From the NCBI GenBank assembly GCA_902729315.2, contig LR746279.1, positions 2,818,501 through 2,882,500 of the forward strand: 64,000 bases of DNA, written 5' to 3'. Of the stretch, positions 60,991-63,867 are shown one piece after another; the first letter of the stretch is position 1; every line of letters begins with the position of its first letter. Made by a program: the position numbers and the translations under genes. The notes below the pieces were generated by a model. That model made no database searches. It saw nothing but the letters and a program-made list of their open reading frames with translations, and was not told the DNA's origin. Source of the stretch: Spirodela intermedia. Lineage: Eukaryota; Streptophyta; Magnoliopsida; Alismatales; Araceae.

Positions 60991-61200
60991 ATGGCAGTTC
61001 TTGTTAGCAATGGTGAGGCAAGAAATGTCAAGAGTGGAGAGGGGAGTAGTTCTTTCCAGAGCTCAACCCCCCTGTCCTTTGAGCAGCACCTCTCAGACGA
61101 CGAGACTGAGAGGCACCAACAAGCGCCAAGAGCAAGACAGGATGTCGACCCATCGATACGCCGCCTCAAGATTCATTCAACTGTAAACCCCATTATATAG
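60991..61200 (+). other. Open frame of unknown origin abutting the LTR element
   Basis: A 69-codon frame (MAVLVSNGEARNVKSGEGSS … SFEQHLSDDETERHQ) with balanced, protein-like composition. Its last 40 bases lie in the LTR homology, so the frame is not native to its 3' end. It could be a first exon or captured fragment cut by the element. I do not recognise it. Confidence 0.25.
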
Positions 61201-61278
61201 GGAGTAACAATACACAACTTTTACCACAACACCCTCAACTAATTACACTATTTCCCTATGACCTAGAACTTCCAACAC
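61161..61278 (-). repeat. 3' LTR of the mosaic element, U3 part only
   Basis: Matches 63751-63867 over its whole length with about 7 differences, including the TATATAAT box and the TGTTGGAA end. Homology stops abruptly at 61161, some 30 bases downstream of the TATA box on the minus strand, so R/U5 are missing or replaced. Confidence 0.85.
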
Positions 61279-61289
61279 TCCCCCTCAAG
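61279..61289 (-). other. Polypurine tract
   Basis: Minus strand TTGAGGGGGAG directly abuts the 3' LTR start TGTTGG. This is where plus-strand DNA synthesis of an LTR element is primed. Confidence 0.8.
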
Positions 61290-61519
61290 ATGAACTTTGA
61301 AAAATTCATCTTGACTAAATTGATGATGACAAAAAATCTTGCCCTCTGAACATTCACTTGTTGATGATGACAAAGATCTGTTGTCACAACAACTCTCCCT
61401 TTGATGGTAATCGCAGATGACCACCACTGCAGTTGTGGATTCACCAACACCTGTGACTCCTCTAATGTTGTCATGCCCCAAAGACAGCTCACTTGCTGCC
61501 CTTGTACACTTGCTGTCCA

Positions 61520-61661
61520 GATTCTTTGAGAGATTCCAAAAAACTGGTTTGTCTGTGCGTTTTACTGAGTTTTCATACCAAGACCTTTAGGAGGAGCATT
61601 GGCAGATGCAGGTGGACGACCTTTTGCTTTGCTTGATAAAGATTTAGTATCAGTGCTCAAG
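61520..61661 (-). pseudogene. delta-COP (coatomer subunit delta) fragment, second segment
   Basis: The minus strand reads LSTDTKSLSSKAKGRPPASA, then NAPPKGLGM, and after a stop and frame shift NQFLESLKES. This is the KGRP…APPKGLGM…TNQFLESLK linker of plant delta-COP, the region before its C-terminal mu-homology domain. It directly follows the FAD6 fragment. Confidence 0.75.
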
Positions 61662-62076
61662 CCAAACTAACCAGTGAGCTATGGACATCCAAGGTCGGAA
61701 TGGGCCATATTCCAGGATTATTCCTTTCCGCAGAAGAGGCTGAGAATCAAATTTTTCTCTTCTCACAGGATGCCAAGCAATGTCCTCTTGTAGCATGTTC
61801 GTCTTGGCAAGGTGTTGATCATGCTTAAATCGCCATGGTTCATAAGGATAGATGAGGGGCAAGAACGTCAGGGTTCCAACAATATCTTCCACTAATTTAT
61901 TGCGCGAAAATGACTTGTGAGTGCAGTCGTGGCCTATCACAAAAAAACCTTGTCACTGCTGTGCCAGTCCATGCCCAAGCCAGAGGGAGAAGATACCATG
62001 GAGATTTAGAAATCATAAAAATCCCCAATGCATAAGAGGTGACTGATATCAAGATGGATTTCCAAGATTTCACATC
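61662..62076 (-). pseudogene. FAD6: FAD6 (plastid omega-6 fatty acid desaturase) fragment, intronless
   Basis: The minus strand encodes [18 protein letters not shown], then [60 protein letters not shown] and WMSIAHWLVW. This is the central part of FAD6, which makes dienoic lipids in plastid membranes. His box 1 is kept (HDCTH), box 2 has lost its last His (HDQHL instead of HxxHH), and box 3 is absent. A run of seven T before GTGATAGGC shifts the frame between the two halves. About 138 codons run without an intron, although FAD6 genes have many exons, so the source was an mRNA. It cannot be functional. Confidence 0.88.
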
Positions 62077-62491
62077 ATGACTCTCCATTTCACAGTATTG
62101 CCTGACCTGAGTAACAGTTACATTCTCCTTGTTTCCAAGAGAGAGAGCTTCATCAAAGGCGTAAAAACAGATCAAACGCACTTGTGCAAATACCTTCTTC
62201 ATCAAGATACGACGCATACTCAAACACAAGTTTTGATAAAGTCTGTGTCTCCAGATCTTCAAGAATGTTGCTCTGCTTGTTTGTTACAAGTAACAAATAG
62301 AGAGCTTCAATCGGCTGGTAGACATAGCATACACTTTCCATCTCAACAAAGGTATGCTGCTTTCCAGTACCAAGAAGCTTCGAAAATGCTGCGAGTAGGC
62401 CCTCTATCCTTATTCGAGCCATATCCACAAACTGCCTTGAGACAAGTGCTTTCCCAGACTTGCCTATGATGGAAGCCGCGAGGACAACCAT
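62075..62491 (-). pseudogene. delta-COP (coatomer subunit delta) fragment, N-terminal segment
   Basis: From the original ATG at 62491 the minus strand reads [20 protein letters not shown], then [40 protein letters not shown] and [20 protein letters not shown]. This is the longin-like N-terminus of delta-COP, a COPI coat subunit in Golgi-to-ER transport. A codon is lost near LETQTLSKL, and a one-base insertion near 62160 shifts the frame before [12 protein letters not shown]. No intron interrupts about 138 codons. It continues in frame straight into FAD6 at [13 protein letters not shown]. Some 45 bases of in-frame leader before the ATG probably come from the delta-COP 5' UTR. Confidence 0.9.
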
Positions 62492-63231
62492 CTTGGAGAT
62501 CTGCATAGTGTCAAGATCTGATGCAAAGGCTCTCAACTATGACAGTTGATTTGATGATGGGGCTTAACTCTCAGGAGAGGTGCAGGCCAGAAACCCTTCC
62601 ACCGATCGAATAATGAACTCGCAAAGGAACTGGAAGGTGAAGACCATTTCGATGAAAGCAGAGGTGAGCAGACAACACCAGACAACATAGACTGTAGCAA
62701 TGTGAACTGTGGAAAACTTTGGTCACCAGACTAGGGAAGACATAGAACTGATGCTGAATATAGGGAGACGAACTAAGGAAGACGGAGTACGACACTGGAT
62801 TGAGACAAGCGTGAACAAGAAGTTGATTTTTACCTCTCATAAAACGCTGATGAAGGTGGAAACAACGGTAATAGACCAAGATATTTATTCAGCCTCTAGA
62901 CAGAAGGCTTGATGCAGACAGAAATGACGACGATGAATTTGAAGATGTCGTTGACGAACCTGCTACTGATGAACTCAAATATACTGTCAAATGACAGACG
63001 AAGATCAGTGCTCTCTTGTCGTAGAACTACCTCGCCGGCAGAGAACCTCGCCGGAAGAGGAGATGACAGTGAACTCGTCGTCCTAGATTAGAGGACTGAC
63101 GAAAGTATAACCGCTCTAAATGGCGGAAGGAAAACCTGCTCGAAATGGCAGAATATCACGCCTTTAAACGGCGGAAAGATAACACGCCTCCAATGGCGCA
63201 ATAAGTGCATCAAGATGATGCCAGAAAGAAA
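62492..63231 (-). other. Leader of the mosaic element, unrecognised sequence
   Basis: About 700 bases between the 34-bp repeats and delta-COP. No gag-like or other protein was recognised on either strand. Part may be further captured sequence. Confidence 0.5.
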
Positions 63232-63436
63232 CTCGGCAGAGGCGGAAGGCCTCGCCGGAAAGACACTCGGCAGAAGCAGTGTGCCTCGCCGAAAAGATAC
63301 TCGGCAGAGACGGAATGCCTCGCCGGAAAGGTACTCGGCAGAGGCGTATGGCCTCGCCGGAAGGATACTCAGCAGAGGCGGAAAACCTCGCCGGAAGGAT
63401 ACTCGGCAGAGGTGGAAGGCCTCGCCGAACAAAGAG
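63232..63436. repeat. 34-bp tandem repeat, six copies, in the element leader
   Basis: Units begin CTCGGCAGAGgCGGAAgGCC at 63232, 63266, 63300, 63334, 63368 and 63402, each exactly 34 bases on, and continue TCGCCGGAAAGATA. Inside each unit GGCGAGG/CCTCGCC-type words recur. The length is not a multiple of three, so the repeat is not coding. Confidence 0.92.
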
Positions 63437-63680
63437 GGTTTTGAAACCCTAACCTGTAACCTGTAACCTGTCTGTCGCCAGATGTTAGTGGTGGCGTCGA
63501 CGCTCCCTAGACAAGCGACGTCGAGCAGAACCGACGCGGAACAGAGCTGGCAGCAGCAGCAGTGGTGCTCCCTCAGGTAGGAGACGCCAAACAGAGGCGG
63601 CAGCAACAGTGGTGGAGGCGATGGCGCTTCCCCAGATGACAGAAGTCGGACAGAGCCGACGAACCTTAGCGGAACGAACC

Positions 63681-63693
63681 CGCTCTGATACCA
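63681..63693 (-). other. Primer binding site for initiator tRNA-Met
   Basis: Minus strand TGGTATCAGAGCG lies immediately after the LTR end CCAACA. TGGTATCAGAGC is the standard complement of the 3' end of plant initiator tRNA-Met used by Ty1/copia elements. Confidence 0.93.
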
Positions 63694-63867
63694 TGTTGGA
63701 AATAGAGAAAAAAACCTCGTCACGAAGGACAGAGAGGAGAACGGCGGAAACCGCCTCAAGATTCATTCAACTGTAACCCCCATTATATAGGGAGTAACAA
63801 TACAGAAAGTTTACCAAAATACCCTCAACTAATTACCCTATTTCCCTATGACCTAGAACTTCCAACA
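63694..63867 (-). repeat. 5' LTR of the mosaic element, 174 bp
   Basis: Bounded by TGTTGGAA and TTCCAACA, an 8-base inverted end. On the minus strand a TATATAAT box lies at about 63782-63789. At 174 bp it is much shorter than typical copia LTRs and within the TRIM size range. Confidence 0.88.

Follow-up and report, generated by a model that had tools for sequence, protein, structure and literature searches.

LTR-element gene capture is usually seen only as its end product. In maize, Bs1 is described as an LTR element with pieces of three host genes that arrived as three distinct transductions (PMC13317346), with exons only (PMC4717578); the short soybean element GmaRetroS15, a TRIM, likewise carries exon-only pieces of three genes, is flanked by 5-bp duplications and exists in several copies, the gene-carrying soybean TRIMs measuring 1,172-1,449 bp (PMC4717578). 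For metazoans, LTR-mediated retroposition has been described as template switching between mRNA and element RNA where the two show microsimilarity, with repeated switches possible (Tan 2016, as reported in PMC5408686), and a double template jump was inferred for a tripartite LINE chimera of Magnaporthe, in which LINE machinery fused three transcripts (WEIRD, Mg-SINE and MGL; PMC2104539). Short LTR elements that have taken up exons of several genes are already known in Bs1 and GmaRetroS15, and such multi-gene captures are less rare than a first-pass annotation of the DNA studied here had implied.

The element that we describe from Spirodela intermedia resembles Bs1 in holding exon-only pieces of several host genes within an LTR element, and resembles GmaRetroS15 in its shortness, its 5-bp duplications, its exon-only multi-gene pieces and its several copies. 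It differs from Bs1, as far as Bs1 is described in the papers that cite it, in that four genes have been captured over the family, relatives persist at other stages and one joint carries an inverted filler; nesting goes unmentioned in the available description of Bs1 (PMC13317346), and the available description of the soybean TRIMs (PMC4717578) mentions neither nesting nor a return to the first mRNA nor a series of captures. In contrast to metazoan LTR-mediated retroposition as summarized there, the recipient site here is captured host sequence itself. A literature search, with subscription papers mostly outside its reach, found neither a nested series of captures nor any element with delta-COP and FAD6. 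What is new here is a nested capture series with intermediates.

Results

Spliced delta-COP and FAD6 pieces alternate within one element

The window, that is, the whole 64,000-nt stretch analysed, corresponds to C16:2818501-2882500, and the genome searched comprised 136.5 Mb in 32 contigs. When the element was aligned to the parental loci by blast, the minus strand from 62491 to 61524 read as spliced delta-COP, then FAD6, then delta-COP again (Table 1), and 61520-62491 matched, exon by exon, a delta-COP gene on C18 (2212319-2215767) and a FAD6 gene on C14 (4310016-4310989). The delta-COP blocks (62489-62449, 62450-62226, 62222-62075, 61667-61619 and 61622-61524) and the FAD6 blocks (62078-61948, 61946-61794 and 61797-61670) are each 92-100% identical to their parents, are colinear with the mRNAs and run in the sense direction of the minus-strand element. 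Absent are four introns of delta-COP and three of FAD6, all seven with GT..AG borders; the first delta-COP intron, directly behind the ATG, depends on an inferred exon 1 that was placed by an ATG-GT site. Missing from delta-COP are mRNA nt 420-632 (213 nt), and FAD6 occupies their place.

These results bear out the first-pass annotation in its intronless delta-COP/FAD6/delta-COP order, in its placing of FAD6 where the middle of delta-COP should be and in its assignment of the mosaic to an LTR element. Its in-frame joint between delta-COP and FAD6 holds locally, but both known copies are frameshifted elsewhere; its extent of 61520..62491 covers the core, but the mosaic reaches 61493 through a 22-bp inverted fragment and an 11-nt filler.

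We named delta-COP through its C18 parent protein, which matches PDB coatomer subunit delta over 1-321 (E 3.9e-75); the C14-derived piece scores for Pfam FA_desaturase, and several of its named protein matches are omega-6 desaturases. Of eight frames searched against Pfam, three were assigned, to FA_desaturase, MlaE and Meth_synt_1, and the other five, the delta-COP-containing frames among these, gave no match. We rejected a delta-COP paralog on C7 as the source (~80% vs. 92-100% identity for the C18 gene), and a chance or low-complexity match was excluded by the genome search.

Table 1. Features of the mosaic element, in window coordinates and in the 5' to 3' order of the element.
Feature	Position	Strand	Evidence
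5' LTR, 174 bp, TGTTGG..CCAACA	63694..63867	-	LTR search and end check
Primer binding site (PBS) TGGTATCAGAGC	63682..63693	-	Adjoins 5' LTR; LTR end plus PBS exact at 3 places
Element body, PBS to TGD1 piece, partly 34-bp tandem repeats	62675..63681	-	Common to many relatives; self-matches
Captured TGD1 (MlaE permease) piece, 5' part (parent 299-505)	62492..62674	-	Blast to C18:1936200-1937250; PF02405
Captured delta-COP mRNA, 5' piece (start codon to nt 419)	62075..62491	-	Three introns absent, first inferred
Captured FAD6 mRNA piece	61666..62078	-	Three introns absent; ATGA (5' joint) and GT (3' joint) common with delta-COP
Captured delta-COP mRNA, second piece (nt 633-775)	61524..61667	-	One intron absent
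22-bp inverted fragment, delta-COP mRNA nt 929-950	61504..61525	+	Only 3 genome places within 2 mismatches
11-nt filler with second copy of GCAGCAA(GTG)	61493..61503	.	
Captured TGD1 piece, 3' part (parent 767-843)	61417..61492	-	Blast to C18 parent
Polypurine tract (PPT) CTTGAGGGGGAG	61278..61289	-	Adjoins 3' LTR
3' LTR, truncated, first 117 of 174 nt	61161..61277	-	LTR end check

The host is a TRIM-like LTR element

TRIMs have LTRs of about 100-250 bp and a total size under about 1.5 kb. The host element has LTRs of 174 bp with TG..CA ends and a PBS and PPT adjacent to them, as TRIMs do, but at ~2.7 kb the window element exceeds their very small total size, and we therefore call it TRIM-like; members that hold TGD1 as their only capture (C2, C5b and C14) measure 1441, 1762 and 2318 bp. 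We take the PBS to be of the initiator-Met tRNA type. The 34-bp tandem repeats of the body lie at window 63210-63440. The 3' LTR ends at 61161, and the sequence beyond it (window 61020-61160) is covered by no other locus among the matches listed. Exact 5-bp target duplications flank 6/11 solo LTRs and three of the 11 members with both outer ends (C5b, C14 and C16b), and those of C3b and C9 also match if the LTR end is moved slightly; this is a family-level result, the window element having a truncated 3' LTR. The two LTRs differ at 7/117 sites in the window element, at 6/138 in the C8 copy described below and at 13-35 of 159-173 in seven other members.

Exon-only pieces of host genes lie between LTR, PBS and PPT, as in Bs1-type transducing elements; capture by a DNA transposon (Pack-MULE or Helitron) was rejected on the absent introns and on the presence of LTR, PBS and PPT. 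Among 150 Copia reverse transcriptase (RT) matches scored (of 1872 candidates), none lay inside a member, the nearest being 1.9 kb outside, and no autonomous partner was identified; these positions, for Copia RT only, were compared by eye with the LTR rows (40 of 154 LTR candidates scored). At C8:3703411-3705946, a similar PBS and PPT flank a Copia RT, which may represent a partner family.

The mosaic is nested in an older TGD1 capture

In the element, the order is TGD1, delta-COP, FAD6, delta-COP, TGD1, such that delta-COP lies inside a TGD1 piece. The parent of this piece (C18:1936368-1936994) encodes an MlaE permease domain in one open frame (PF02405, 238 bits), and we take this gene to be TGD1; eleven further loci passed the PF02405 cut-off, besides the C18 gene and two matches on C27, where two adjacent open MlaE frames (C27:3878-5337) are perhaps bacterial contamination. 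The two-gene picture of the first-pass annotation was therefore right in its A-B-A order, but that arrangement is nested in a third gene, and a fourth, MetE, has entered a sister lineage.

The flanks of the mosaic (61160-61492 and 62492-63200) recur at at least two dozen other places. We mapped 21 family members onto the four parent genes and found TGD1 in 21/21 (in part by construction, because the search queries contained TGD1-derived sequence), MetE in 3/21, delta-COP in 3/21 and FAD6 in 2/21. Two further loci were compared, one with TGD1 and one without a TGD1 match (C2:2153700-2154950); the latter, a related element, is possibly the state before the first capture. The TGD1 pieces are 68-88% identical to their parent. 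In 10/21 members, TGD1 564-565 is joined to 694-699, and the gap (parent 566-694, 129 nt) starts with GTAATC and ends with GCGCAG at a place where the parent is one open frame; these GT..AG ends suggest a splice in an RNA ancestor, with cryptic splicing of the element or of a TGD1 transcript. Other TGD1 gaps differ between members (e.g. 528 to 752 in C12b and C15).

A second copy shares the joints

A second full mosaic lies at C8:2969523-2970474, 92% identical to the window copy and with the same arrangement; its letters at joints J2-J5 equal those of the window and it has one substitution within the J1 identity. These were the only two full-mosaic places found in the genome search. The C8 element also has its 5' LTR partly duplicated in inverted orientation (locus L011 3500-6400). 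Frameshifts occur in both copies, and we accordingly rejected an intact chimeric gene. The element moved after capture: the joints of the window copy recur in C8, at an unlinked locus, and MetE is present at three loci.

Three S. intermedia proteins named coatomer subunit delta by their sources (P0001, P0002 and P0037) cover the mosaic, which suggests that they are transposon debris. P0037 lies on a contig equal to C8 in length. P0001 and P0002 contain the delta-COP/FAD6 joint and lie on contigs of 4,044,921 and 58,018 bases, which match neither C16 nor C8 in length, suggesting another S. intermedia assembly. We saw no point in favour of an assembly chimera, and two loci at 92% identity, together with the same joint in P0001 and P0002 on contigs of other lengths, leave that explanation extremely improbable. 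Ordinary processed pseudogenes, inserted separately and later into one old element, would also account for spliced sequence inside it; we nonetheless regard this origin as very improbable, given that the pieces are internal mRNA fragments, that the joints, as read, show neither poly(A) nor a target duplication, and that the same joints, lying on short identities, recur at two loci.

Four joints follow short identities or filler, and one a longer identity

At J1 (TGD1 to delta-COP), the two sequences share a 10-nt identity, GATCTCCAAG, at the delta-COP start codon, where the element relative C2 reads GCAGATCTCCAAGCAGAGG and delta-COP exon 1 reads CTGGATCTCCAAGATG; GATCTCCAAG was found at this site in 4/6 relatives checked. 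Random breakpoint pairs share at least 10 nt at a rate of 4.25e-5 (400,000 pairs). C2 and the delta-COP mRNA have five common stretches of at least 10 nt, one of them 11 nt long, so the J1 site is one of several available identities. The junction check asked for by the first-pass annotation found overlaps of 4 nt (ATGA) at J2 (delta-COP to FAD6; random rate ~1.8%) and 2 nt (GT) at J3 (FAD6 to delta-COP, just past a spliced FAD6 exon border; random rate ~16%), both rates having been measured on the element vs. delta-COP; the shortness of these overlaps counts against a template-switch reading.

At J4, delta-COP nt 775 runs into the inverted 22 bp, a sequence found within 2 mismatches only in the window, in C8 and, on the other strand, in the delta-COP gene itself. 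At J5, TGD1 resumes after the 11-nt filler, for which nothing longer than 9 nt was found in the four parents or the three relatives checked. One end of the mosaic is thus an inverted filler and not a simple switch. An inverted templated filler at a deletion is a mark of end joining, and the J4-J5 end looks like a later repair deletion. The template of the filler lies in the delta-COP stretch lost from the window, as expected if a longer delta-COP piece was once present.

Relatives hold other captures

Members C3, C12 and C5 carry a spliced MetE piece (Pfam Meth_synt_1), 89-97% identical to its parent (C10:4548064-4549943); five MetE introns are absent in C3, part of MetE is absent from C12, and C5 is cut off within MetE and retains the near joint only. 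MetE is inserted in the TGD1 piece at about 562/696 (for the far side, blast gave 733 and the letters read by eye ~696), with a local duplication at its 5' end. One further member, C10 (1/21), carries delta-COP nt ~395-415 and then jumps over a 6-nt identity (TGGAGA) to the C-terminal exons; its delta-COP stops at an exon border, where TGD1 resumes at 507. In the window, TGD1 breaks off at 505 (496-505 if the J1 identity is allowed for), matching the C10 site, and we take the delta-COP of both as one insertion, altered differently in two lineages. Because C10 is rearranged and truncated on its 5' side, it does not by itself prove a FAD6-free stage; it has lost everything 5' and its jump lies within ~4 nt of the FAD6 joint, so its ancestor may also have borne FAD6. 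The ~1.16 kb 5' of its delta-COP piece matched none of the parents, relatives or other sequences compared.

The 5'-shell tree, computed for 18 members and midpoint-rooted for display alone, unites the five MetE and delta-COP/FAD6 members in a single group (support 100/98). The 3' shell is shorter; in its tree, which covers 20 members, 1/17 branches is firm and C10 falls weakly with the MetE member C3. The delta-COP, FAD6 and MetE blocks of the family are mostly 92-100% identical to their parents, with four at 87-90%. Of 545 delta-COP and 385 FAD6 sites, 12 and 3, respectively, carry substitutions common to the window and C8 (Fisher p = 0.11), 15 and 10 are changed in the window only, and 5 and 5 in C8 only; the common substitutions would fit a delta-COP capture older than that of FAD6, although the difference is not significant.

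Discussion

We consider it likely that serial template switching over several rounds, together with one DNA-level deletion, produced nested mRNA captures in a non-autonomous TRIM-like family. Two switches in one reverse transcription, as first proposed, gave way to this reading on the testimony of the relatives, which point to several rounds. The pieces with their parents, the missing introns, the joints, the copies and the relatives are observed, and we infer the enzyme, the packaging and the order of the second to fourth steps: an RT supplied by another element would leave the element RNA, copy a co-packaged spliced host mRNA and return. A TGD1 piece would have entered first, many descendants later losing 129 nt (GTAATC..GCGCAG); MetE or delta-COP would then have entered that piece in sister sublineages, delta-COP by way of GATCTCCAAG; FAD6 would have replaced delta-COP nt 420-632; and the far end of delta-COP with adjoining TGD1 would have been deleted, leaving the 22-bp inverted templated filler, in a step that most resembles the end joining of an integrated copy by polymerase theta. 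The product would then have transposed, giving rise to the copies in the window and on C8. Each of the four captured genes lies in sense and three are spliced; sense captures, splicing, LTR/PBS/PPT and joints on short identities are the outcome expected when RT switches onto co-packaged mRNA (model in PMC5408686). Four of four in sense is weak as evidence, since random orientation would give it once in 16.

Alternatively, the whole insert could date from a single round of reverse transcription in which the template changed at least four times (from the TGD1 element to delta-COP, to FAD6, to delta-COP and back to the element), and the same joints in both copies, as well as some rearrangement in every mapped relative with delta-COP, would suit it. 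We judge it quite unlikely, however: delta-COP in C10 extends past the point at which it breaks off in the window, up to an exon end that adjoins TGD1 507, and the inverted filler derives from delta-COP past the window's breakpoint. Both delta-COP and MetE entered with almost no element sequence lost, for which end joining or break patching fits as well as switching. cDNA fragments might accordingly have been patched by end joining into double-strand breaks of integrated copies that transposed later, a possibility that we hold unlikely: the near-clean insertions at TGD1 505/507 and about 562/696, the 5' end of MetE with its local duplication and the J5 filler speak for it, but four of four genes in sense, the 10-nt identity at J1 and the several separate patches that it would need in one small family speak against it. 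Serial switching with a later deletion remains our preferred account.

Coexisting in one small genome with their parents are members with TGD1 only, TGD1 plus MetE, TGD1 plus (rearranged) delta-COP, and TGD1 plus delta-COP plus FAD6, and perhaps a bare one, which allows the switch sites, the lengths of the overlaps, splicing and subsequent repair to be followed at each joint, and part of the capture order to be recovered. All three later captures seen among the mapped members lie in sequence captured earlier (delta-COP and MetE in TGD1; FAD6 in delta-COP), and we offer the tentative idea, itself doubtful, that a captured mRNA piece is a tolerated landing zone for the next, such that nested captures accumulate. 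If this is true, nested capture would be a standing habit of the family and not a run of accidents, and nested captures may disguise the element from silencing.
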